Below, piece by piece: positions 4,352 through 39,500 of a stretch of 49,696 nucleotides of DNA. Positions within the stretch are counted from its first letter, which is position 1. The number at the start of each line of letters is the position of its first letter. The notes under the pieces are model-generated. The model ran no database searches, was not told the origin of the DNA, and saw nothing but the letters and a program-made list of their open reading frames with translations. A program made the translations under genes and the position numbers. Source of the DNA: a virus; the IMG/VR virus record IMGVR_UViG_3300019762_000002, positions 1 through 49,696 of that record; one strand, written 5' to 3'.

Positions 4352-5549
4352 TTATAATCACCGTTATGTTCGATAAGTCCCAACGTGACAACTCATTAAA
4401 CGCTATAGGTACTTGACCAGACGTTAGGGTGTTCACTGTTAATGCTGTGATGTACGAGTTACCGAACACACCTATCACCTGATTAACAGGTGTGTACATG
4501 CGTGACACTGGTACTTCCTCGCCAATGTCAAAACCTAATACGTTAAACCCACACTCTGCAGCTACTAACTCACCAGACGAGTAATCAATAATAGCTTGTT
4601 TGACTCGCTCATCGGTATCGTTAGGTAATGTACCGTCGTTTTGTATCGTAACACTTACGATCATATCCACATAATTAGGTCGACTGAACGTGATGTCGCG
4701 AGCGTTGCTCGGGTAAATGTCGAACACGTCGGGGACTGTTACGCTTGTACCGGCGGCGTGTAATTTACACCCGGGGTTCTTCTTACGGAATATCGCCTTG
4801 GCAATATCTTCGTTCGTACCACCGTCAACAATCGGCGCAACGCTATGTTCGGGTAGTCCGTTAGCGTCAGTCACACCCGTATCGTTTTCTAGTACGATAG
4901 CGCGCCGAACACCTTCAACAGCGAATATCTCACCGAGCATGTTATCAACCTGAGCATTACCAGGGCGTGACACAGCTTTAGCGCGTTCAAGACGCAACGA
5001 CGAATCATTCTGTCTATTCGTACCGAGCGTAGCAACCGTTGGGTTTGTAACTTTTTGCCACCCACCTACAGTGTCTACTATTCGTGTAATTGTTCCAATG
5101 CTCGCAACCGTCGCACCGTTAGTCGTACACGTTGCGGTCGCTGCGACTGTACCACCTACACCGATTGTTACGTTCGAGTCAATCGACCATTGTGAACCAT
5201 CGACTACAGACTCGACGAGTTTACCGGCTAAAATGACTGTACCCGCGACACCAGTTAGAGTTAATTCCACATTGCTTGGTGTGCCTTGACTGCGTATCGT
5301 ACCTGTGAGTGAACATATGATGTTTAGATCAACGTCTTTCGCTTTGTTCGGGTCTTTAGAGTTGTAAGCACGTTGGCCGAGTTCGTCGAGGTTTGCGAAT
5401 ATCTCAGCGTCGGACGCGAGTTTTAGACCGTCGGGTGTCGATGGGTCTAAGTTCCAATTCGGATCGATGTCCAAATATAGCTGGCGCTCTTCAGCGAACC
5501 ACGTGTTTTGATTTTTTATAACGTAACCGTTAAAAGTTATTTCAGCCAT
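4344..5549 (-). CDS. Baseplate J-like wedge protein, 401 aa
   Basis: Forms the outer baseplate wedge of contractile tails. The N-terminus (FNGYVIKNQNTWFAEERQLYLD) and the GTIRSQGTPSNVELTLTG region around residue 85 are typical of the baseplate J family. A conserved R-A pattern (NDSSLRLERAKAVSRPG) sits near residue 185, and GVRRAIVLENDTGVTDANGLP near 215 is also characteristic. The length matches the family. It overlaps both neighbours by 8 bases, indicating coupled translation. Confidence 0.9.
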   Translation of the reverse strand: MAEITFNGYVIKNQNTWFAEERQLYLDIDPNWNLDPSTPDGLKLASDAEIFANLDELGQRAYNSKDPNKAKDVDLNIICSLTGTIRSQGTPSNVELTLTGVAGTVILAGKLVESVVDGSQWSIDSNVTIGVGGTVAATATCTTNGATVASIGTITRIVDTVGGWQKVTNPTVATLGTNRQNDSSLRLERAKAVSRPGNAQVDNMLGEIFAVEGVRRAIVLENDTGVTDANGLPEHSVAPIVDGGTNEDIAKAIFRKKNPGCKLHAAGTSVTVPDVFDIYPSNARDITFSRPNYVDMIVSVTIQNDGTLPNDTDERVKQAIIDYSSGELVAAECGFNVLGFDIGEEVPVSRMYTPVNQVIGVFGNSYITALTVNTLTSGQVPIAFNELSRWDLSNITVIIND

Positions 5550-5892
5550 TTGTCAAGCTCACCGTTGTTGATCCGTATTGTGTAAGTATACCAGCAGTCA
5601 CGGTATAAGCGCGAGTATTGATGTCGAAATCAGTTTTAAACTCTATGAGTTTTGTTACACCCTCTGTGCGTATGATGCGATTTTTTATAATCGCTTCTTT
5701 GTTTGACAGTGTACCTTGCTTACCAAGAATAGACTCCCACCATGGTGTACCGTCCGTCACGTCTCTGAAATACTCGCCGAGGTATAAACGTAAACGAGTC
5801 TGTACAGTCTGTGCGACCTCTTCAACTTCTGTTGTGAATTGACGACCGCTTGTCGTTATGTCTCCGTCTACGTCTAATAATCTCACAGTCAT
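5542..5892 (-). CDS. Baseplate wedge, gp25/W-like, 116 aa
   Basis: Small wedge protein related to T4 gp25 and P2 W, expected to nucleate sheath assembly at the baseplate. It has the family order: an N-terminal GDI-type strand, helix EEVAQTVQTRLRLYLGEYF, then the DGTPWWESILGK segment, and a C-terminal beta region. Size is normal for the family. It starts in the last base of the spike gene's stop and overlaps baseplate J, so the three genes are tightly coupled. Confidence 0.8.
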   Translation of the reverse strand: MTVRLLDVDGDITTSGRQFTTEVEEVAQTVQTRLRLYLGEYFRDVTDGTPWWESILGKQGTLSNKEAIIKNRIIRTEGVTKLIEFKTDFDINTRAYTVTAGILTQYGSTTVSLTNG

Positions 5893-6659
5893 TATAATGC
5901 TCCCGTATCGCCGGATTTAAGCGGCCTGTCTTCCGCGTCGAGGTAAGTACCCTTACCGTGCGTATGTTCTTTAACTTCTTTACCAGCAACGACAAGAGAC
6001 GATGAACCTGTTACGGTCGGTGCGGTTACGCTGACAGGACTTGACGCTGAACCGTCGGGGTTGATTATAAACCCGTTAATGTTCACAGTGCCGTCAGTCG
6101 CTACGGTTTTAGTGTACGCCCCGTTCGTTTCAGTTAACGAGCCGTCAGGGTTTACCGTCGTTGTGAAGTTACCGTTAGTCGTTTCGATTGTACCGTCTTT
6201 CTTTAACCACACGTAATGTGTACCAGCTTTGTTACGCCAGCGTATACCATCGTTCGCGTGGTCAACTATTACATTCGGTTGCGAGCGTAAGCCCGGTACG
6301 AACATGGCGTCCTGTAAATCGTGAAAACGTAGAATAGGGTTATTAGCAACACCACCTGTCGTTTTCCAACCGTCAATACAACGTTGTGAAAAATGTATAG
6401 TACCCTCAGACCCTACGTCGATTTGATGTTCTTGGAAGTATTCAGACCCACCAATAAACGCCACGGGTACTTCTATCAGCGGCGATGGTGTAAACGTTGT
6501 CCCGTTCACGTCGATACGTTGCACGCCGATTTGTATTTGGGCGTGTTGGGTCGTCGGGTCAAATGCTATCACATGGCCCGTTATGGATGTCGCGACGGAT
6601 TTCATTAGCTCACGGTGTGAACGCTTGAAAAGTTCCGTTAGGGTTGCTTTATTACTCAT
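5892..6659 (-). CDS. Membrane-puncturing spike, Gp138-like, 255 aa
   Basis: Central spike that pierces the outer membrane. An OB-like N-terminal domain of the Gp138 type spans about residues 20-110. Repetitive beta strands follow (TNGNFTTTVNPDGSLTETNG and similar), and an EHTHGKG motif near residue 230 could bind a metal at the tip, as in related spikes. I prefer ATG 6659; an in-frame codon at 6677 lies inside the likely promoter. If the -10 at 6668-6673 is right, the message has almost no leader. Confidence 0.8.
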   Translation of the reverse strand: MSNKATLTELFKRSHRELMKSVATSITGHVIAFDPTTQHAQIQIGVQRIDVNGTTFTPSPLIEVPVAFIGGSEYFQEHQIDVGSEGTIHFSQRCIDGWKTTGGVANNPILRFHDLQDAMFVPGLRSQPNVIVDHANDGIRWRNKAGTHYVWLKKDGTIETTNGNFTTTVNPDGSLTETNGAYTKTVATDGTVNINGFIINPDGSASSPVSVTAPTVTGSSSLVVAGKEVKEHTHGKGTYLDAEDRPLKSGDTGAL

Positions 6660-6667
6660 ATGTTCAC

Positions 6668-6673
6668 AGTATA
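6668..6673 (-). promoter_or_regulatory. Minus-strand late promoter before the spike gene
   Basis: On the minus strand TGTTATACTGTGAA gives an extended -10 (TG-T-TATACT). The -35 region (TTAAAT) is poor. The same TTATACTGT core occurs at 12323, 22681, 25223 and 32741, so it is probably the late promoter class. The predicted start of transcription is within about 2 bases of the ATG at 6659. Confidence 0.5.
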
Positions 6674-6716
6674 ACACTCACGCGGCGATAATTTAAAATT
6701 TATTTACGTTTAGGTG

Positions 6717-6745
6717 TTGACAGGTTCGTCACTAGCTAGTAAAGT
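6717..6745 (+). promoter_or_regulatory. Plus promoter with operator, for the structured RNA (site H)
   Basis: TTGACA (6717-6722), 17-base spacer, TAAAGT (6740-6745). The palindrome TGAC-AGGTTC-GTCA (6718-6731) covers the -35 box. This is a plus-strand promoter inside a minus-strand tail operon, with no plus-strand gene downstream, only the structured RNA and its terminator. Confidence 0.75.
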
Positions 6746-6751
6746 TAATCG

Positions 6752-7073
6752 TGCATACAGGATATTCCTTACTTAATCTTGAAAAAAGAGTAAATTATGT
6801 AATCAAATATACGGGTACTCAAATCGCAGATGTGAATATCGAATCGTAACTGAGGAGGTGGTCAATATCTCGGGGCTATGACCGATAGATTAGCGAGACT
6901 TAACGACTGTTGAGATAATAGACGGTAGGTCGATTTAGAATGTAACGGTGTTACACACTCGGTAAAATACTGCTTAATAGACGTTACGAGGCGCTAGCAG
7001 TGGTGTAACACCGATACATTCTGTATCAATCAAGTTAGAACCTTTTAACCCCGTTTCGCGACGGGGTGTTTTT
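6752..7073 (+). ncRNA. Putative structured non-coding RNA, about 320 nt
   Basis: The stretch has its own promoter (6717-6745) and intrinsic terminator (7048-7073) and no credible reading frame. Long-range pairings are visible. ATACAG 6755-6760 pairs with 7021-7026. GATATTC 6762-6768 pairs with GAATATC 6834-6840. A stem of 19 pairs with one mismatch joins GAATGTAACGGTGTTACAC (from 6938) to GTGTAACACCGATACATTC (to 7021). Inside its loop ACTGCT pairs with AGCAGT (6969-6974 with 6996-7001). TCGTAAC 6844-6850 is complementary to GTTACGA 6983-6989, a possible pseudoknot. GAGGAGGTG at 6852-6860 is complementary to the 16S rRNA 3' tail. I do not recognise the RNA class. Confidence 0.7.
7048..7073 (+). 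terminator. Intrinsic terminator of the structured RNA
   Basis: ACCCCGT-TTCGCG-ACGGGGT stem-loop followed by GTTTTT. The T-run overlaps the stop codon of the minus-strand hub gene. Orientation matches plus-strand transcription from the promoter at 6717. Confidence 0.85.
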
Positions 7074-7938
7074 ATGTACGAATACGTAAACCGTATATCT
7101 TATTCGACCATGAGTCACCCCACGTATCACCAGTGTATTCAATCTTAATAATTTTATGTTCACCTTGCCCTGCTGTTTCAGGTACGTCGCGAAAATATAA
7201 GTTACTAAAATTAAACGTCGCTAAGTCCGACTCGATACGAAACTTACCACCTATACGAAACTTAGGGTTTAGTCGTGTCGTTACGTCCACACCAACGTCA
7301 GATATTTCAGGTATACCTTCCATGCCTGTGAATTGCGATATGACATTCACAGCACCTTGACGAGCGTAACCCTGTCTAACGACGACTAGCTTCTCGTTTT
7401 CGATAACGTAATCAAACTTGTGGGTTTGTGCCAACTCATCGAGGTACACACGCGGATCACCTTGTAACGCATACCCATAAGGATACGGGTCGACGTCTGC
7501 GAACTGTGAGTCGTCAATCACTATCGGGTAACCTAACGCTGTACCACACGCACGTATAATGTTGATCAGTTTAGTGTCAACACCTAACGTTTGATTAATT
7601 TGCGGTTGTTGCTCAGTGACCTTACCACCTCTACAAACCAAGCGTGTGATCGTGTTAGGCCCTCTACGTTCTGGAAACACGTTACGCACTGTACCGCTAA
7701 ATATAGTGTCGATTGAGTCCACATAGCCGGCTCTAAAAACGATGTTCTTACCACGCTTTAACGCTTTACTTATCGTATCAGTTGATAAATTATATATTGC
7801 TATATCAGCGTAACTAGTAAACCCGCCGAAGTCGTGGAGTATTTGAAACGTTGCTTTAAACTGTCGGCCAGCAACAGCTTCGATAAGTACCTCGCCGTCA
7901 ACCTCAAGCGACCAACGTCGATCGTTATAACTACTCAT
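7072..7938 (-). CDS. Baseplate hub protein, 288 aa
   Basis: Probable hub that joins the tube to the spike. The sequence has the hub pattern: an N-terminal immunoglobulin-like strand set (RWSLEVDGEVLIEA ... AIYNLSTDT), then VFRAGYVDSIDTIFSGTV, a middle LDELAQTHKFDYVIENEKLVVV segment, and a C-terminal strand YRDVPE-type region ending in the DTWGDSW motif. ATG 7938 is preferred over 7962 because it follows GGTGTGGG and overlaps the plug gene stop by only 8 bases. Spike and hub genes are separated by the RNA gene. Confidence 0.8.
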   Translation of the reverse strand: MSSYNDRRWSLEVDGEVLIEAVAGRQFKATFQILHDFGGFTSYADIAIYNLSTDTISKALKRGKNIVFRAGYVDSIDTIFSGTVRNVFPERRGPNTITRLVCRGGKVTEQQPQINQTLGVDTKLINIIRACGTALGYPIVIDDSQFADVDPYPYGYALQGDPRVYLDELAQTHKFDYVIENEKLVVVRQGYARQGAVNVISQFTGMEGIPEISDVGVDVTTRLNPKFRIGGKFRIESDLATFNFSNLYFRDVPETAGQGEHKIIKIEYTGDTWGDSWSNKIYGLRIRT

Positions 7939-8221
7939 CCCACACCAACTTATTATCGACACCTAAATTATCAAGTGTTACGTCCTCACCGATAAAATAC
8001 AATTTACCGATACCCGCTTCGTAATTTTCGAGTATATCAGCACCCGGTTCAAGCATCGCACCCGCTGCGAGTAATACATCATCGCGACGAATGTCAACAG
8101 ACCAAGCGGGCCCAGCGAGTGTAATATAATTTAAAGTGAACTCTAAAAAGTTTTCACCCAGTTGAATGTTAAACGTGTAATGAGCGTTAGCAGCACCTTT
8201 ACGTAACGGTAATGTGATCAT
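7931..8221 (-). CDS. Baseplate plug protein, Pam3 gp18-like, 96 aa
   Basis: Small beta-rich protein with the family's pattern: an N-terminal NAHYTFNIQLGENFLEFTLNY strand pair, a WSVDIRRDDVLLAAGAML segment, and a C-terminal GKLYFIGEDVTLDNLG stretch. In related contractile phages it plugs the tube at the baseplate. It overlaps both the Dit-like gene (4 bases) and the hub gene (8 bases). Confidence 0.75.
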   Translation of the reverse strand: MITLPLRKGAANAHYTFNIQLGENFLEFTLNYITLAGPAWSVDIRRDDVLLAAGAMLEPGADILENYEAGIGKLYFIGEDVTLDNLGVDNKLVWDE

Positions 8222-8859
8222 TCGAACAAACTCCCTATCGTTGATAGCACCGATGCACTCGATACATTTCCCGTGACCTCACCTAAATCCACAGTTGCTA
8301 CAGCTTGAGAATAGCTAGGGTCGTTAGGGTTTAACTCAGATAGAGGCGCACCGTTTTTACTCAGTGTCGTTTCGAGCGTTGGGTATTCTTGTAAGTCTGC
8401 TTCGAATATAAGTGCGTTTTCGTTTACAGGGTCTTTCGTACGTCGAATGCGACCAATCACCATGTTCTTTAATTGTATGTCACCCGCGTCAATGTCAAAC
8501 GGTTCACCACTGACCATCAATGTGATCAGAAAATCAAGCGTTGAACTTGCGCGAGTCTCACTACTACCAGCTAAGAAACCCGCCGATAAACCAGCAACCG
8601 TTGAGAGTACACCACCCACGTCATTACTTAACGCGCCGATAAAGTCCGTAACACTCGCGTTAAGTGGGTTATTACTAACCGCACCGACTAGCGACCATTT
8701 GAACGGTTTGATTATACGGTGGTCAACGGCTCTCGCACCTAGCTCAATCGTATAACCTGTCAACTCAACTTCAGCTTCGAACGTGTCTTCGAGTATCGCG
8801 TCAAACTCGTAACCCGCTAACGTCGGCGCTTTCGGTGTGAATATATTAATTAATGCCAC
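8218..8859 (-). CDS. Dit-like baseplate protein, 213 aa
   Basis: Matches the N-terminal pattern of Dit-like proteins in small myoviruses: YEFDAILEDTFEAEVELTGY followed by ARAVDHRIIKPFKWSLVGAVSN (residues 17-62). A Gly/Ser/Ala-rich insertion lies around residues 75-105, then SSTLDFLITLM and IRRTKDPVNENALIFEADLQE. It lies directly between the tape measure gene and the plug gene, the expected position for a protein at the tube-baseplate junction. Confidence 0.75.
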   Translation of the reverse strand: MALINIFTPKAPTLAGYEFDAILEDTFEAEVELTGYTIELGARAVDHRIIKPFKWSLVGAVSNNPLNASVTDFIGALSNDVGGVLSTVAGLSAGFLAGSSETRASSTLDFLITLMVSGEPFDIDAGDIQLKNMVIGRIRRTKDPVNENALIFEADLQEYPTLETTLSKNGAPLSELNPNDPSYSQAVATVDLGEVTGNVSSASVLSTIGSLFE

Positions 8860-8860
8860 A

Positions 8861-10180
8861 CTAACCCCCTGTGCTTGACGATAAGTCGTCTATAGCTGTT
8901 TGTGCCATACCATCCACAACCGATACAACTTTGCGATCTATAACAGCACCGTCAAGCATTATCGGTATCTCAATAGTTTGTCGTGTCGGTGCTTGTCGCG
9001 CTTGTGGTTGCGTTACAGACTCGATACCTTCTCTACGTCGCTCAGAGAATCCAGATTCAGATAGACTACGCACCGGCGCAGAGTCGTTACCAAAATAACC
9101 CGCTTCGACTTGTTTCTGATACGTGTCGGTAAAACCACCCGCTTTTGCTTCGGCGTCGAGTGCCGCTTGTGCCTCTTCGTTGCCGAACATCGCTAACGTT
9201 TGAGCAATGCCACGCCCTAAATCTAGTTTATAATCTTCTGGTAATTTGTCGCTAATTATCGTTCCGATACCGTAACCAGCAGCAGCCGCAGCACCTACAC
9301 CCGTAACAGCCGCAGCACCACTTGCAACACTTGCTAGACCCGTGCCGATTGCTGGGATATAACGAGCTAGAAGTGCGAGTGTATTTAGCGCACCTGTACC
9401 AGCGACAAGTGCCGAGAACCCCGCGAACGTTACAGCGTTGGAGTTCACAAGGTCTTTGTTAACACCTATCCAATTGTTGATACCGTCTATCGCACTATTA
9501 ACAACGGGTAGAAACTGATCGCTTACTGAGTCCGTAGCACTCCCGATGTTTTGCCCAAACTCGACCCACTGTCGATTGAACTCAGCAGCCGCTTCAGTTG
9601 AAGACTCAGTAACAGGACGTATCGTACGGAAACGCTCGACAAGTTGATCAACACCCTCACGCCCTTTACTCAATAAGCGAATACTCGCTTCGTCAAGTCC
9701 TAGCGCTTCAGCGGCGTTGATACGTTGTTGTGTAGTCATCGTAGAGAATGAGTCGGCTAGCGCAAGATAAGCGTCCGTAGCGTTCTCAGCGTTTGCTATA
9801 ACACTCGGATCAATACCAGCCTTCGCAGCGGGTGCGAAAAATCCCACATCGCCAACAAGTATGCGAGCGCGTACACGTTCAAGGTTTTCGAGTTGCGACA
9901 TAAACCCTTCGAGCGAACCCTGCTCAGTTGCGAGCGCGTTACCGAAAGCCATTACGTCGTTAGGAAGTACACTGAATGTTTCGGCGAATTTGCCGAGCAT
10001 ATCGCGTGATGACGCGAAGTCAGCTGTTAGTGCTTTTAAACCGAAGCCACCCGCAACGACTGAGCCGAGTTGTAACGCTTTGGATTTCACAGAGTCGATT
10101 GAACCCTCGAACTCCCTTGCGCCTTTTTGGTCTACGTCAAAACCGAGGCCGACTAGTAAACTACTTATAACTTTAGCCAT
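8861..10180 (-). CDS. Tape measure protein, 439 aa
   Basis: Sets tail length and is ejected during infection. It follows the chaperone gene, begins with MAKVISSLLVGLGFDVDQKGAREFEGSI-type tape-measure N-terminus, is rich in Ala/Gly helices, and has a hydrophobic stretch around residues 255-305 (LNTLALLARYIPAIG ... GVGAAAAAGYGIGTI). At 439 residues it is short for a myovirus, predicting a short tail. Its first 8 bases overlap the end of the frameshifted chaperone product. Confidence 0.85.
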   Translation of the reverse strand: MAKVISSLLVGLGFDVDQKGAREFEGSIDSVKSKALQLGSVVAGGFGLKALTADFASSRDMLGKFAETFSVLPNDVMAFGNALATEQGSLEGFMSQLENLERVRARILVGDVGFFAPAAKAGIDPSVIANAENATDAYLALADSFSTMTTQQRINAAEALGLDEASIRLLSKGREGVDQLVERFRTIRPVTESSTEAAAEFNRQWVEFGQNIGSATDSVSDQFLPVVNSAIDGINNWIGVNKDLVNSNAVTFAGFSALVAGTGALNTLALLARYIPAIGTGLASVASGAAAVTGVGAAAAAGYGIGTIISDKLPEDYKLDLGRGIAQTLAMFGNEEAQAALDAEAKAGGFTDTYQKQVEAGYFGNDSAPVRSLSESGFSERRREGIESVTQPQARQAPTRQTIEIPIMLDGAVIDRKVVSVVDGMAQTAIDDLSSSTGG

Positions 10181-14550: not shown

Positions 14551-14579
14551 TTGACGGGTGCGTCACTATGTAATAAACT
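14551..14579 (+). promoter_or_regulatory. Plus promoter with operator (site I)
   Basis: TTGACG (14551-14556), 17-base spacer, TAAACT (14574-14579). The palindrome TGAC-GGGTGC-GTCA (14552-14565) covers the -35 box. It drives the HTH gene at 14610 and the zinc-ribbon gene at 14939. Confidence 0.7.
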
Positions 14580-14609
14580 TCCCGTACAGTAAATCTGTGG
14601 AGATACAGA

Positions 14610-14942
14610 GTGCGTAGCGACATGATACGAACGATAAAAGAAAACCCGAACTTACAAGTCGGTGCGTTGTCAAGACTGTTGGGTATACCGAGCGACACTA
14701 TAAAACGATATAGAGCTCGTAATAATTTGCGCGGTAAATGGTCTTATACTGGTATAGGTATACCCTTTTTAAGATTCGACGGGTTGTATCGTATAAACTA
14801 TAACGGCAAATACGTGACGGCATCTAACAATTTTAAACAGGTTATTAACGTTTTAGACCACTTATTATGGTGCATAGAAAAAGGTATTATGTCCGACAAG
14901 ACACGTATTGAACACCCTTACTTCGAGAGGCTTAAATTATGA
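14610..14942 (+). CDS. HTH DNA-binding protein, 110 aa
   Basis: I chose GTG 14610 because GGAG lies 7 bases before it; the ATG at 14622 is too far from it. Residues 5-40 (IRTIKENPNLQVGALSRLLG then SDTIKRYRARNN) form a helix-turn-helix of the type that reads DNA. The remainder (FDGLYRINYNGKYVTASNNFKQVINVL) looks like a small alpha/beta domain found in phage regulatory proteins. It overlaps the next gene by 4 bases. It is probably an early regulator under operator control. Confidence 0.6.
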   Translation: MRSDMIRTIKENPNLQVGALSRLLGIPSDTIKRYRARNNLRGKWSYTGIGIPFLRFDGLYRINYNGKYVTASNNFKQVINVLDHLLWCIEKGIMSDKTRIEHPYFERLKL

Positions 14943-15241
14943 GTAGATACATATTATCAAGTGATTCGGTTACGATAAATGCTAAAGTAACCGTCAACAA
15001 AATGACAAAAGACGAGTGTCAAAAACTTGACATACCCGTCTATTATCACGAATGTAAACACGGTCACAAATTACGCTACGTGTCAAACGATAAGTGTGTC
15101 GATTGCTCAGTGGCTCAAAGCCGTAAACACACTGGTGATGCGAAACGCGTCGCGATTAAAAAGCGTCTCGACGAAATCGAAGCACGTCGAGAGCTTGAAG
15201 CACTAGACAGTACGTGCACCCATGCCCGCACGACGTCGTAA
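14939..15241 (+). CDS. Single zinc-ribbon protein, 100 aa
   Basis: Contains C39-K-H41-G-H43 and C53-V-D-C56, a metal-binding knuckle (ECKHGHKLRYVSNDKCVDC) that in other phages often precedes endonuclease VII-type nuclease domains. No HNH or nuclease domain follows here; the C-terminus is a basic and then Glu/Arg-rich helix. The same motif occurs four times in the 31282 gene, which lies behind the paralogous control region. The 3' end overlaps the convergent DUF4054 gene by 39 bases. Confidence 0.65.
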   Translation: MSRYILSSDSVTINAKVTVNKMTKDECQKLDIPVYYHECKHGHKLRYVSNDKCVDCSVAQSRKHTGDAKRVAIKKRLDEIEARRELEALDSTCTHARTTS

Positions 15242-34551: not shown

Positions 34552-36942
34552 TTAGCTGTTAGTGACGGAGGTGTCAACTGTTTGAGCTAATAAATCACCT
34601 TGCGCCGCTGCGTAACATCGCGCAACCTCCGCACCACTCGTTAAGTTACTGTGAATATGACCCGCACGGATATATAAGCGAGGTTTACCACCTTCACATG
34701 GTATAACGTTATTAGCACGTCCACCGTCTTTAAGTGCTGGGTGATAGTCGTAACCAAGCGAGCGTAACAGTTCGCGATGTTTGCCCGGCGGTAACATGTT
34801 GTCTTTACGAATGTCTTTAAGTAACTTACTGAACGCAAAGCTGCTGATCCATCCACCAGCAAAACCCGGACGGTCTTCACCAATCGCTTCGAGCACTTCC
34901 TGTTCGATACGACCCATACCAATCGAAGCGGCCTCTGCGGTGCTTGACGTGTCCGGCGCTGTTTGACAGCTCATCGTCGGGTTAAACTCGTTAGGTATCG
35001 CGTACTCGTTAAGAAAGTGTGCAACCTTAGCGTAACCGTTATGATTATCTAACCAATCGTAAAGATTCGAGAAGTAATCGCCCGTCATACCGTCGCGTAT
35101 AAGGTCTATTTTTTCTTGTTGTGCTGAATAAAATACACAGTAGCGGCGGTCTTTCGTAGCGTCTTTGATACCGTCTTTATGATTCGAGTTAAACATAAAG
35201 TTACAGCAAATATTGTGCATCGCTTGGTCGGTATTCATCGCACGTTTAGCTAAGCGCTTATTTGTGATCATAGGTTTAAGCGTTTCAATCATTTCAAGCT
35301 TATTACTCGGGACGTAAATATCTTCAACGCCGATGAATAACGTATTAAATAACCATGCGTTAAACTTCTCAGAGATTTCTAGCGCTGGTGGCATGTGTGT
35401 ATAACGCTCACCGATGGCATACGCAACGCAACGAGTGAAAAGTGTTTTACCATTACCTACCACGCCTTGTAGTAGTGGTGCCCATTGGATTTTATACCCT
35501 TTATACTGAACACACGCAGCCATGTACGATAACAGTATCGTTTGGTCACGCTCATCTGGTAACACTTTCGACAAGTGAGTCATAAACGGCTTAATGTCAC
35601 CCGACACAGTGTGAATATCGATAGGCACGTACGTATTAACGTAACGCCACCCGTCAATCTCAACGATAGCGCCAGGTGCTACGTCAGGGCGGAATGTCAT
35701 CGAGTCAGCTTTAGGGAAGTGCATTATCTGAGACTCTGTGAACGCCTCCCACGCTTTTTTGGTCGTCTTCTCGCCGTCTTCACCCGCTGCGAAATTGTAA
35801 CCACCGTACATCGCGTTAAACTGCTCAGGTTTAAGTAACGCACCGTTAGAACAAAAAATACGGTTCACCTCGGCAATATATACACACCCTTTAAACAACT
35901 CGACTTGCTTATCGGCCGCTAGTAACTGATAACCTTCACGCATGACAGGCTCAAGTACGGTCGTAACTTCTGTGATTTCAGTCGTCGATAAACCGACAGC
36001 ATAAAAACTACCTTGACGACCTACAGCGTTCGTGATAGTGCGTTGCATGTACGACTTATGGTAATCCCATTTGTCACGCACAAGCGCAGACTTACGCATT
36101 AACGACTCGATACGCTCACAATTACCACCTGTCCAGAACGCCAAGTGTTGAGCAAGCGCAGCATCAGCGCTCGAACGGTCGTACTCACCTTCCAGCGTGT
36201 CGTGCGGGTAGCCACGTGACAACACGGGAGCGTTACCAGCCCACAAGTCTTTGAACGATACTTTAGTCGGTTCAGCACCGAACATAACAGCTACTTCTTT
36301 AGGTTTCGACGCGAGCGCTTTCTCGATCAAGTCCGCATCGTCTTTAGGCGGGTTCGAGTCTTCAACGTGTGTCGTCGACCATTCGCCAGCTACTCGCTCG
36401 GGGTCTTTACCCGCGAAATACTGATCAACAACCGAGTCGAGTCCGTCCGTAACGTGCGAAGCGTCACCATTTACACCGTTACCCGTCAACGCGATGAAAC
36501 GCTCCGAGGTGTAAAGCTCGATACCTAGCGCGATATTCTTACACTTATGCTCAGGCTCAGTGCCAGCGTACGACCCGATAATATGCAAACCTGTACCACT
36601 ATGTGAAATCTCAACAGCAGCACCGCTTAACTCTGCGCATAGCTGCGTAGCGAGTGGCGACCACTGACCATCGTAAGCGCCGTCAATATCTACACAGTAA
36701 AAAGGGTCGTTCGATGTGAATACAAAACCAACACCGTAATTATCACCAAGCAACTGAGCGCTACTAATAGCGGTGTCAGGGTCTAACCATACGTTAGGGT
36801 TGTGTGCGTCCGTCACGTTACCGGTAATGTCACAAGGGAATTTGTCGAATTTACCAGGTCGTGACTTGCTCGCCACGGCTTTCCACAATACGAATTGTGC
36901 GTAGGCCCGTAACGCATTAAAAGATTGTGGGAGTTGTTGCAT
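34552..36942 (-). CDS. PrimPol-helicase fusion (NrS-1-like), 796 aa
   Basis: Replication protein with an N-terminal primase-polymerase: GVGFVFTSNDPFYCVDIDGAY holds the D-x-D pair at 85-87, EISHSGTGLHIIG (111-123) and ELYTSERFIALTG (142-154) follow the order of NrS-1 type enzymes. The C-terminal SF3-like helicase has Walker A GVVGNGKT (493-500), WLFNTLFIGVEDIY (Walker B) and FMFNSNHKDG (sensor). Its ATG follows GGGGAG, 3 bases after the TetR-like gene's stop, so the two are co-transcribed. Confidence 0.85.
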   Translation of the reverse strand: MQQLPQSFNALRAYAQFVLWKAVASKSRPGKFDKFPCDITGNVTDAHNPNVWLDPDTAISSAQLLGDNYGVGFVFTSNDPFYCVDIDGAYDGQWSPLATQLCAELSGAAVEISHSGTGLHIIGSYAGTEPEHKCKNIALGIELYTSERFIALTGNGVNGDASHVTDGLDSVVDQYFAGKDPERVAGEWSTTHVEDSNPPKDDADLIEKALASKPKEVAVMFGAEPTKVSFKDLWAGNAPVLSRGYPHDTLEGEYDRSSADAALAQHLAFWTGGNCERIESLMRKSALVRDKWDYHKSYMQRTITNAVGRQGSFYAVGLSTTEITEVTTVLEPVMREGYQLLAADKQVELFKGCVYIAEVNRIFCSNGALLKPEQFNAMYGGYNFAAGEDGEKTTKKAWEAFTESQIMHFPKADSMTFRPDVAPGAIVEIDGWRYVNTYVPIDIHTVSGDIKPFMTHLSKVLPDERDQTILLSYMAACVQYKGYKIQWAPLLQGVVGNGKTLFTRCVAYAIGERYTHMPPALEISEKFNAWLFNTLFIGVEDIYVPSNKLEMIETLKPMITNKRLAKRAMNTDQAMHNICCNFMFNSNHKDGIKDATKDRRYCVFYSAQQEKIDLIRDGMTGDYFSNLYDWLDNHNGYAKVAHFLNEYAIPNEFNPTMSCQTAPDTSSTAEAASIGMGRIEQEVLEAIGEDRPGFAGGWISSFAFSKLLKDIRKDNMLPPGKHRELLRSLGYDYHPALKDGGRANNVIPCEGGKPRLYIRAGHIHSNLTSGAEVARCYAAAQGDLLAQTVDTSVTNS

Positions 36943-36945
36943 ATA

Positions 36946-37287
36946 CTACTCCCCGTCTTCTTCGCTGATACCATTGCTGATCAACCAATCCATTGCTTGA
37001 CGTTTTAACGCATCATCAGCACCGTGAGCGATACGACAACCCGACGCGATACCATGAGCGATGATAGGTAACTCGGCGCGGTGTATCGCTGCGCGCATAA
37101 CTGCACGGTGTAACTGATTCATAGTGTTAAACACTTTACTCACCAAACCCGTGGAGATACCACCTTGCTCGGCGATACGTTCACGCGTTAAAGCGTCGTA
37201 ACCCTGTTTAATAGCTATATCCATCGCAACACCTAAGATGTGCTCGCGACGTGCTTCTGGTTTCATTCTTGTTCTACGGTCTGACAT
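36946..37287 (-). CDS. Short TetR-like repressor, 113 aa
   Basis: Residues 10-60 follow the TetR DNA-binding domain: EARREHILGVAMDIAIKQGY, then ALTRERIAEQGGISTGLVSKVFNTM with the recognition helix. TetR proteins are usually about 200 residues; here only about 50 residues follow the HTH, too few for a normal ligand pocket. Two TGAC-N6-GTCA operators flank its own promoter, one over the -35 and one after the -10, and nine more copies lie at other promoters. I infer it is the regulator of that set. It is co-transcribed with the PrimPol gene. Confidence 0.75.
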   Translation of the reverse strand: MSDRRTRMKPEARREHILGVAMDIAIKQGYDALTRERIAEQGGISTGLVSKVFNTMNQLHRAVMRAAIHRAELPIIAHGIASGCRIAHGADDALKRQAMDWLISNGISEEDGE

Positions 37288-37309: not shown

Positions 37310-37351
37310 TGACTAGATGGTCAATATAAGCGCGCGTGACGGACTTGTCAA
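37310..37351 (-). promoter_or_regulatory. TetR-gene promoter with two operators
   Basis: Minus strand: TTGACA (37346-37351), 17-base spacer, TATATT (37323-37328). Operator 1 is TGAC-N6-GTCA at 37310-37323, just after the -10. Operator 2 is at 37337-37350, overlapping the -35. Both orientations read alike as the palindrome is symmetric. Strong basis for autoregulation. Confidence 0.85.
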
Positions 37352-37870
37352 CTATTTCATCCAGTCACGGTCGATTAATCTTACCTTTCGATCACCTTTA
37401 CCAAACGTAAACACCACTGAACCTTTAAAATTACCGTTAACAGGTGAACCAGTTGAAGCGTTAACGAACGATATCCTACCGTTTATTAAATCCACATGGT
37501 GTGCGTGTTCCCACGCTTTTTTAAACCATTTAACTGACGTGTCGGCGGGTATCAACATACTAACGTTAACGTCAAGTCGCTTCGATAACTCGATACATAA
37601 ATCAACCCAAGGCGGTATATCACTATAAGGTGGGTTACACCATATATTCATGGTATCGGCTTCGCACATCGATAAAGCGCTTAAAGTTGTTGACATGTCG
37701 AGCGCGTTCATTTCTTCAGTGATGTAAAAATCACACTTATGATTTGTATGGTCAGCGCATAAATCTACACCATAATTATAAATTCCGTTGTAGTAATCAA
37801 AAACAAATTGTGGAGTAGACCACAAATCTTTAATCTCTACAGGTGTTTTACTTCCGTGATAACCCTTCAT
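37352..37870 (-). CDS. dam: DNA N6-adenine methyltransferase, phage Dam type, 172 aa
   Basis: CNPPYS (residues 78-83) is the catalytic NPPY motif. LWSTPQFVFDYYN near residue 16 and VDLCADHTNHKCDFYITEE near 35 fit the Phage N6-adenine methyltransferase family. Target sequence unknown. Overlaps the VRR-NUC gene by 4 bases. It could protect phage DNA from host restriction. Confidence 0.85.
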   Translation of the reverse strand: MKGYHGSKTPVEIKDLWSTPQFVFDYYNGIYNYGVDLCADHTNHKCDFYITEEMNALDMSTTLSALSMCEADTMNIWCNPPYSDIPPWVDLCIELSKRLDVNVSMLIPADTSVKWFKKAWEHAHHVDLINGRISFVNASTGSPVNGNFKGSVVFTFGKGDRKVRLIDRDWMK

Positions 37871-38343
37871 AGTGACCCCACATCATTACAAAAACACGCA
37901 TCACCACCAAGCGACACGATAAGTTCTAAAAACCGCAACTGTGCATTTTCGCGCTCAGTACCCGTATATTTCCAATCAGCGCGTTTAACTTCACGTGCGA
38001 CAAATTGCCCAATCGTACTACCCACCATGTCAGGCGTGATAAGTACGGGGCGTATACCAATCAGGTCGGACGACTTGAGCGCTTTATTCATAGCCGCTGA
38101 GTCATTCGCCAACCCGTAACGTATTAAACGCCCTCGCTTATCTTCACAGGCGCCTACGTTGTTACGCCACACTCGCGACCCGACGTGACTAGCCTCAAGG
38201 CGTACAGCGTTCAACACAGCCGCTTCACTCGCACCGGTCATAGAGTGCGGTAAGTCCGTCGGCTGCGTGAATAACTGTTGCAACTCTGCGAGCGCTTCGG
38301 GCGTTACGCCGTGACGCTTCGCCCAATCTTGGATGTGTATCAT
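37867..38343 (-). CDS. VRR-NUC nuclease, 158 aa
   Basis: Residues 39-60 (SEAAVLNAVRLEASHVGSRV), SSDLIGI (91-97, Asp) and FVAREVKRADW (114-124, the E-x-K pair) form the VRR-NUC active site. ENAQLRFLELIVSLGG follows. Such nucleases act on branched or replicative DNA. ATG 38343 overlaps the upstream stop by 4 bases. Confidence 0.85.
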   Translation of the reverse strand: MIHIQDWAKRHGVTPEALAELQQLFTQPTDLPHSMTGASEAAVLNAVRLEASHVGSRVWRNNVGACEDKRGRLIRYGLANDSAAMNKALKSSDLIGIRPVLITPDMVGSTIGQFVAREVKRADWKYTGTERENAQLRFLELIVSLGGDACFCNDVGSL

Positions 38344-39500
38344 AACTGATACCCGTTGCAGCTTTCTGCACAACCTGACTCTTCATTAATGTTGGCCCCA
38401 ATTAACTTGCGCAGCATGTGAGCATCCATTAATTGAGCCTCACCAATAATCATTTCGCTGTTTCTGTGCTTCCTGAAAAACACTCGATCCTGTCCATTTT
38501 TAGTGTTTGGCTTAACGTGCTTGTATGTTTCTTCAAACCATTTAAAAGCCTCGTACTTTTCTGGATTTTCTAGCGCTATTAGATGAAGTTTTTTGTCTGA
38601 TTTTTTCCAGCACGTTGCGCAATTACCCATATGAGCTTCAAGCTCTAAATTGAACGGTTGCTCTTCCCAAAAGTCATTTACATCCTCTTTTGTCATTGGG
38701 AACCAGTCAATCATTGGGAAGACAAGATTGTATTTTTCTATTTTTTTAACGTAAGACATAGCGGCTAAGCAGTCTGACTTTGTTATATTCTGATTTATAT
38801 ATTTATCGGCCTGTTTCTTAGTTTCGGAAATCTGACTTATGAATTTATTGGTTGTGGTCACGCTATCCTTAATCCACAAAAGATTGTAATCATAAATACC
38901 TGACGTTTCACTAGCAACTCTCCTGCTTTTAACCCCTAAAAATAAATTGGCAGTTCCAAGGCCGCTGTATATTTCACTCCTAAATGATTTACCATGGTCG
39001 CCGACATAAAACCCCATTTTTGACAATGCTGTTTTTACGGGTTTACTCATAGCCCTATTGCTTTCATCTATACGCATCCCTAACGCCTGCTTAACACCCT
39101 TTAAACCGTTGGCTTTTTTGTAAGACTCGATCACCTGTTCTTTTAGCCTGTCGCTGCACTGTGGGTACGTAGCGTTAGGTATGCCATTCTTTCTAACGTG
39201 CGCGTGAAACGGATGTAAAGGATCTTTGTATTGGTGAATACGATAAGCATTTTCAAAATCTGTAATTCTATAAGTATTCCCAACCCCATGCTCATGCACT
39301 ACAGCCTCAAGCCAGATAATATTAAGTCCGTAGTGATCTGCGCATTTTTTAAGGAATATTAAAGTTTCTTTATTTTCCATTCCGGTGTTTGCGAACAGAA
39401 AAATCAAATTGTACTTATGTCCATATAGTTTCTTTATTATAATTGCTTGCGCCATGGATGACTTTCCGCCACTTGTGTTTATTATTAGCGTTTCTTTCAT
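38340..39500 (-). CDS. PAPS-reductase-like PP-loop protein, 386 aa
   Basis: The PP-loop motif TSGGKSS (residues 9-15) is followed by LIFLFANTGMENKETLIF and YPQCSDRLKEQVI. Cys pairs (NCATC near 293 and CAESC near the end) could hold an iron-sulphur cluster. Similar proteins are common in phages. They may take part in sulphur-based DNA or RNA modification, as in DndC, but that is not shown here. The gene is richer in A/T than its neighbours. Its promoter carries operator site G. Confidence 0.75.
   Translation of the reverse strand: MKETLIINTSGGKSSMAQAIIIKKLYGHKYNLIFLFANTGMENKETLIFLKKCADHYGLNIIWLEAVVHEHGVGNTYRITDFENAYRIHQYKDPLHPFHAHVRKNGIPNATYPQCSDRLKEQVIESYKKANGLKGVKQALGMRIDESNRAMSKPVKTALSKMGFYVGDHGKSFRSEIYSGLGTANLFLGVKSRRVASETSGIYDYNLLWIKDSVTTTNKFISQISETKKQADKYINQNITKSDCLAAMSYVKKIEKYNLVFPMIDWFPMTKEDVNDFWEEQPFNLELEAHMGNCATCWKKSDKKLHLIALENPEKYEAFKWFEETYKHVKPNTKNGQDRVFFRKHRNSEMIIGEAQLMDAHMLRKLIGANINEESGCAESCNGYQL

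Follow-up and report, generated by a model that had tools for sequence, protein, structure and literature searches.

What occupies a gap of several hundred bases between two tail genes of a phage, and why should it carry a promoter and a terminator that face against those genes? The question is raised by the genome of a contractile-tailed marine phage, a virus record of 49,696 bases that was taken whole and is referred to below as the window; judged by the major capsid protein (77%), the isolates nearest to it are vB_VchM-138 and CP-T1, both phages of Vibrio cholerae. Two minus-strand genes, one for the spike (5892-6677, PF18352) and one for the baseplate hub (7072-7962, PF22759 and phrog_196), flank a gap of 394 bases in which both the promoter and the terminator lie on the plus strand. 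Comparison with related phages gives good support to the view that this region is a member of a previously undescribed, modular family of phage non-coding RNAs that is absent from Rfam.

The sigma70-type promoter (6717-6745, plus strand) consists of TTGACA (6717-6722) and TAAAGT (6740-6745) separated by 17 nt, and it recurs in relatives. An intrinsic terminator follows at 7048-7073 on the same strand, with a stem at 7048-7067 and then a T-run. With its start placed from the -10 box and its end from the terminator, the predicted non-coding RNA is about 320 nt long (6752-7073, plus strand). A sequence-only reading of the locus had already described a promoter with operator, some 320 bases free of reading frames and a terminator, all on the opposite strand from the tail genes. 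The two boxes, the operator statistics given below and the terminator stem with its T-run bear this out, and no plus-strand open reading frame longer than 32 aa lies within 6717-7073.

The predicted RNA folds strongly (-94.9 kcal/mol, z -4.4, with none of 100 shuffles as strong), mostly because of one long hairpin at 6937-7022; the stretch 6930-7030 gives -41 kcal/mol and a z of -7.2. The closing stem, the long hairpin and the pseudoknot named in the same reading are all present as letters. The long, near-perfect hairpin has held up well, with compensatory changes in relatives. The closing stem (6755-6760/7021-7026, ATACAG/CTGTAT) is lost or altered in two close relatives (L005, L046) and is not used in the minimum-energy fold of 6752-7073, and the pseudoknot (6844-6850/6983-6989, TCGTAAC/GTTACGA) was discarded because its partner falls within an insert that every relative has replaced. 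Both are probably chance pairings, so that the idea of a structured, repressor-controlled RNA survives in its control, its termination and its structure but not in these two details. The suggestion that the RNA fits no known class stands insofar as Rfam yielded no family: a search of 6600-7200 returned nothing, with no GOLLD match up to E 10, and across the window and its relatives only tRNA and int-alpA were matched, the core remaining unmatched. A distant blastn search of the window region against isolate phages gave no match. On the evidence of the relatives' sequences, what had been overlooked is the modular family itself, which occupies the same gap in related phages and also occurs in unrelated ones, with its conserved 16S-tail complement at 6851-6863 and its exchanged inserts, some of them tRNAs.

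An apparently regulated slot among the tail genes

The operator, TGACAGGTTCGTCA (6718-6731, plus strand), is a TGAC-N6-GTCA dyad that overlaps the -35 box. Exact TGACN6GTCA sites occur 14 times in the genome, mostly at promoter-like positions, against 0.82 expected from shuffles, the largest of which held 4. Two of the sites (37310-37323 and 37337-37350) lie immediately upstream of a gene for a TetR-type HTH protein of 113 aa (36946-37287, minus strand; PF00440, TetR_N, E 2.3e-6). Judged by its position and its TetR_N domain, this protein is likely the repressor, controlling its own gene and a regulon that takes in roughly a dozen promoters. The RNA promoter shares its operator both with other promoters of the phage and with that of the candidate repressor gene, as would be expected of a repressor-controlled transcript.

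The dyad is also found at the RNA promoters of ten relatives (L004, L005, L012, L046, L016, L018, L020, L021, taken to be CP-T1, L024 and L025), its central letters differing in most, and it is retained in L017 even though a protein gene there takes the place of the RNA. Since the operator recurs across relatives, even with the RNA so replaced, the gap appears to act as a regulated slot. In L017 the operator-controlled protein gene (4858-5477, minus strand) is oriented like the RNA that it replaces: a moron slot in which an RNA and a protein gene are interchanged. The layout of operator and promoter occurs a second time in the window itself, opposite to structural genes (14552-15241, plus strand) and followed by two small open reading frames (phrog_25039 and phrog_1081), apparently another regulated moron.

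Among phages with a related hub gene, most have a hub-spike gap of between a few hundred and about 1000 bases, and others have little or none; in bacterial genomes, the search for hub relatives gave one distant match only. The RNA lies opposite to the tail genes in the window and in L004, L005, L012, L046, L016, L019, L020 and L025, and on the strand of the tail genes in L007, L009-L011, L018 and L024.

A conserved core

The most constant part of the family is a core (6846-6937, plus strand) that is captured by a covariance model, R1, with an E-value of 3.8e-10 and no second match in the window. The model yields one match for each phage genome, and a search of 101 bacterial genomes from an unrelated phylum gave none. 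Two hairpins make up most of the core structure. Hairpin A (6870-6885, plus strand) reads TCGG-GGCTATGA-CCGA and has predicted equivalents in most members; hairpin B (6897-6931, plus strand) is built from an outer GACTTA/TAGGTC stem, a CG/CG step and an inner CTGTT..AATAG stem, and it ends in a GNRA-type tetraloop in most members. Across 19 sequences the inner stem of hairpin B is paired in 98.9% of cells and four of its five pairs have changed on both sides, whereas a control in which the partner was slid gave 17-48% paired. Such compensatory changes are what a family held together by RNA structure should display.

The family was widened by a pattern scan, which added L185, L187-L189, L191, L195 and L198. 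Outside its training set R1 finds L190, L200, L201 and L202, among them three isolates that had come up by similarity and that the model confirmed: Oceanospirillum phage vB_OliS_GJ44, Shewanella phage ZP9 and Shewanella phage 3/49. Most matches to the GTAACGTCG pattern were due to chance. Five pattern matches (L184, L186, L192, L196 and L197) proved to be coding, and L175 has the letters of the motif and no R1 match. With a weak R1 match (E 0.11), L135 is a doubtful member; its stretch 5843-9491 comes from a phage contig that encodes 14 tRNAs and one tmRNA, and a sequence resembling a 16S complement stands just before the tmRNA gene.

Complementarity to the 16S rRNA tail

The constant element of the family is (A)GGRGGTGRTC, a run of 11-14 nt that complements the 3' tail of 16S rRNA (GGAUCACCUCCUUA, as read from E. 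coli rrsB). The window has a 13-bp complement, TGAGGAGGTGGTC, at 6851-6863 (plus strand), which at -22 kcal/mol is the strongest on either strand of the 49.7 kb; the next best (-19.1 kcal/mol) falls in a coding region, and the best gene start in the genome reaches -13.1 kcal/mol against the 16S tail. The same holds more widely: 15 of 17 non-coding hub-spike gaps, picked by synteny and not by motif, contain a complement with an energy of -18.9 to -24.8 kcal/mol, and none of 1242 segments of the same length from the same phages reaches -18.9 kcal/mol. Part of the members were found through a pattern that fixes GGTGRTC and were thereby selected for it, so the conservation of the motif rests mainly on the 15 gaps found by synteny, five of which, of type I, are closely related to each other. 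The complement is missing from the gaps of CP-T1 (L021) and L068, and in Shewanella phage 3/49 (L200) it is weakened to -12.4 kcal/mol. An extended pairing with a strand of 16S helix 45 (AACCG opposite CGGTT) occurs in some members only and was dropped.

The account that we favor, and to which as a whole we give slightly better than an even chance, is that this repressor-controlled RNA uses anti-Shine-Dalgarno pairing to dock on 30S subunits, the docking and its effect being what we infer from sequence. Once the repressor is relieved, the RNA would be transcribed and would pair with the free 16S tail of the 30S subunit more strongly than any mRNA start of the phage. Because no start codon follows the complement, the RNA would park on the subunit instead of initiating, and it would carry its inserts, as tRNAs or mimics of tRNAs, to the ribosome. 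Translation initiation would then most likely be hindered or biased during infection. The family thus suggests an undescribed route by which phages may latch onto ribosomes. That it represents a whole class of phage RNAs which seize 30S subunits in this manner without initiating, with tRNA or tRNA-mimic modules as exchangeable cargo, is a more tentative proposition, and one that we hold at somewhat short of even. The open-licence literature yielded no description of a phage RNA that complements the 16S tail.

Exchangeable inserts

Two slots around the core hold sequences that differ from phage to phage. The 5' slot (6752-6830, plus strand) carries unrelated inserts in L005, L012 and L046, and L004 retains the core although its 5' insert is missing. 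The 3' slot (6937-7022, plus strand) is the long hairpin, AGAATGTA.CGG...CCG.TACATTCT, whose inner part is exchangeable. The outer stem is constant in the close relatives of the window, and the inner helix is altered on both sides (TGTTACAC/GTGTAACA, GTTAACAG/CTGTTAAC, TGTGTAAT/ATTACACA and TGTGCAAT/ATTGCACA); it is this two-sided variation under a constant outer stem that supports the hairpin. In all, 5 phages carry 8 copies of the 3' module; their inner helices compensate, and a tRNA-like sequence sits inside one of the copies. In L005, L012 and L046 extra copies lie past the RNA terminator, each with an insert of its own.

Some inserts are tRNAs outright. True tRNAs lie inside the gaps of L009 (Arg and Ser) and L016 (Asp), and if those beside the RNA are counted the list extends to L187, L188, L195 and L202; in L187, L188, L195 and Shewanella phage ZP9, tRNA genes come next at a distance of no more than about 300 bases. 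The RNA of the window has no tRNA within it. Other inserts are common to several phages, always in the RNA sense: L009 and L019 share 165 nt at 84% identity (2.7e-47), L024 and L016 share 98 nt, and L018 and L019 share 60 nt. Inserts of L019 reappear in the tRNA region of Klebsiella phage phi1_146050 and in other phages, about 100 Vibrio phages among them.

These observations lend themselves to another reading, in which the inserts (tRNAs, mimics, or decoys against host defences that cut tRNAs) are the functional part, the core is a platform for folding, processing or stability, and the complement is a 30S-binding stabiliser of the STAB-SD kind. That the inserts are the most variable part of the RNA, pass between phages in the RNA sense, reappear in the tRNA arrays of unrelated phages and in some cases are tRNAs all fits such a cargo carrier. 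The core, however, is the constant part, and L004 has it with no 5' insert at all, which leaves this reading unlikely in our estimation.

The modules also turn up in places that have been annotated otherwise. One insert module is common to the marine RNAs, to L096 (1929-3664), to L101 and to L098, the Q-S gap of CUS-3; L096 and L101 are long, non-coding, tRNA-rich arrays of Klebsiella and Escherichia phages, and these arrays and the L098 gap are annotated as tiny hypothetical open reading frames or as nothing. The 3' part of the L190 RNA includes about 93 nt that are more than 90% identical to a region that precedes rha in many lambdoid phages (phi80, HK620 and HK106; L199). That region of phi80 has no R1 core match, and the segment is possibly a separate conserved RNA module.

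Pairing, structure or translation

The favored account of docking on the 30S subunit depends on the motif being what it resembles. It might instead serve inside the RNA as a structural element or a protein-binding site and match 16S rRNA by coincidence, and in isolated folds the motif is indeed partly paired (mean unpaired probability in the window 0.39). Its variation is nevertheless that which pairing with the 16S tail demands, position by position. Among 28 aligned members, the central positions opposite a 16S U hold only A or G (22:6 and 16:12), the one opposite a 16S G holds only C or T (25:3), and those facing C or A do not vary, one letter excepted, so that, in these alignments, the changes preserve the pairing. 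Moreover, when the motif is held open the downstream sequence still folds as hairpins A and B in most members, and a coincidence would have to account for 11-14 bp of complementarity in nearly all of the synteny-picked gaps and in none of the controls. A purely structural role for the motif is therefore improbable.

A complement of the 16S tail could also be nothing more than a very strong, ordinary Shine-Dalgarno sequence, with the RNA a short mRNA for a tiny peptide. Three type II members do have an ATG 8 nt past the motif, and one rejected pattern match, L194, turned out to be a true Shine-Dalgarno followed by a small basic open reading frame. In most members, though, there is no start codon at Shine-Dalgarno spacing: no ATG, GTG or TTG occurs 4-12 nt past the motif in the window, four close relatives and ten others, and changes in the length of the loop in the type II members disrupt the frame and keep the stem. 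A start codon at the proper spacing followed by an open, conserved frame was not found, and translation of this kind is very improbable.

That the region is a DNA element (an invertible or inverted-repeat mobile element, or a recombination or packaging site) would suit its 19-bp inverted repeats and the tandem 3' modules of L005, L012 and L046, but promoter, operator and terminator point to transcription, the G-U pairs in the helices and the one-sided A/G variation found opposite U are hallmarks of RNA, and the location in the hub-spike gap is fixed, so that this can hardly be the explanation.

Relation to other phage RNAs

STAB-SD elements, which bind 30S subunits and stabilise mRNAs from within 5' UTRs, offer one parallel to the proposed docking RNA. 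Here too a strong Shine-Dalgarno stands without a start codon, but it lies inside a terminated, structured RNA and not in the 5' UTR of an mRNA. The tRNA clusters of T4-like and T5-like phages offer another, since some of the inserts are canonical tRNAs; unlike in those clusters, the tRNAs here are part of, or come after, a larger RNA that has a core of its own.

A closer comparison is with GOLLD, an RNA of phages and prophages whose gene often lies close to tRNA islands and which sometimes has tRNAs in a variable linker; its 3' part is conserved, its 5' part less so, and ribosome pull-down is reported to recover it (PMC12286853). Both RNAs have tRNAs in or beside them in part of their members. 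The new family is nevertheless mostly shorter, has an explicit complement of the 16S tail and, in this phage group, a fixed site between baseplate genes, and the window and its relatives yield nothing above the gathering threshold of the Rfam GOLLD model. ROOL is likewise phage-borne and structured, often near tRNA islands and without known function, at 659 nt (PMC12286853); its Rfam model is unmatched in the window and relatives, and the core differs. During phiKZ infection, phage tRNAs were found in fractions that contain 30S subunits (PMC8545117). Taken together, the ribosome pull-down of GOLLD and the cosedimentation of phiKZ tRNAs are, in our analysis, independent precedents for phage RNAs at ribosomes.

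GOLLD and ROOL are large phage RNAs near tRNA genes for which no function is known, and the family described here provides a sequence-level, testable link of such RNAs to the ribosome, in that one element is predicted to pair with a defined segment of 16S rRNA. The core is also present in cultured phages (Shewanella phage ZP9 and Oceanospirillum phage GJ44). If the binding is real, it would amount to a new RNA-based control of initiation, an RNA-only lever for phages on host translation, with modular cargo that recombines between phages.

Shewanella phage ZP9 carries a further phage small RNA, int-alpA (RF02996), about 0.5 kb from the core, separate from it and not overlapping. Elsewhere in the window, the replication region (34552-36942, 37352-37870 and 38340-39500) encodes an NrS-1-like primase-polymerase (PF22763), a Dam methylase and a PAPS-reductase-like protein.
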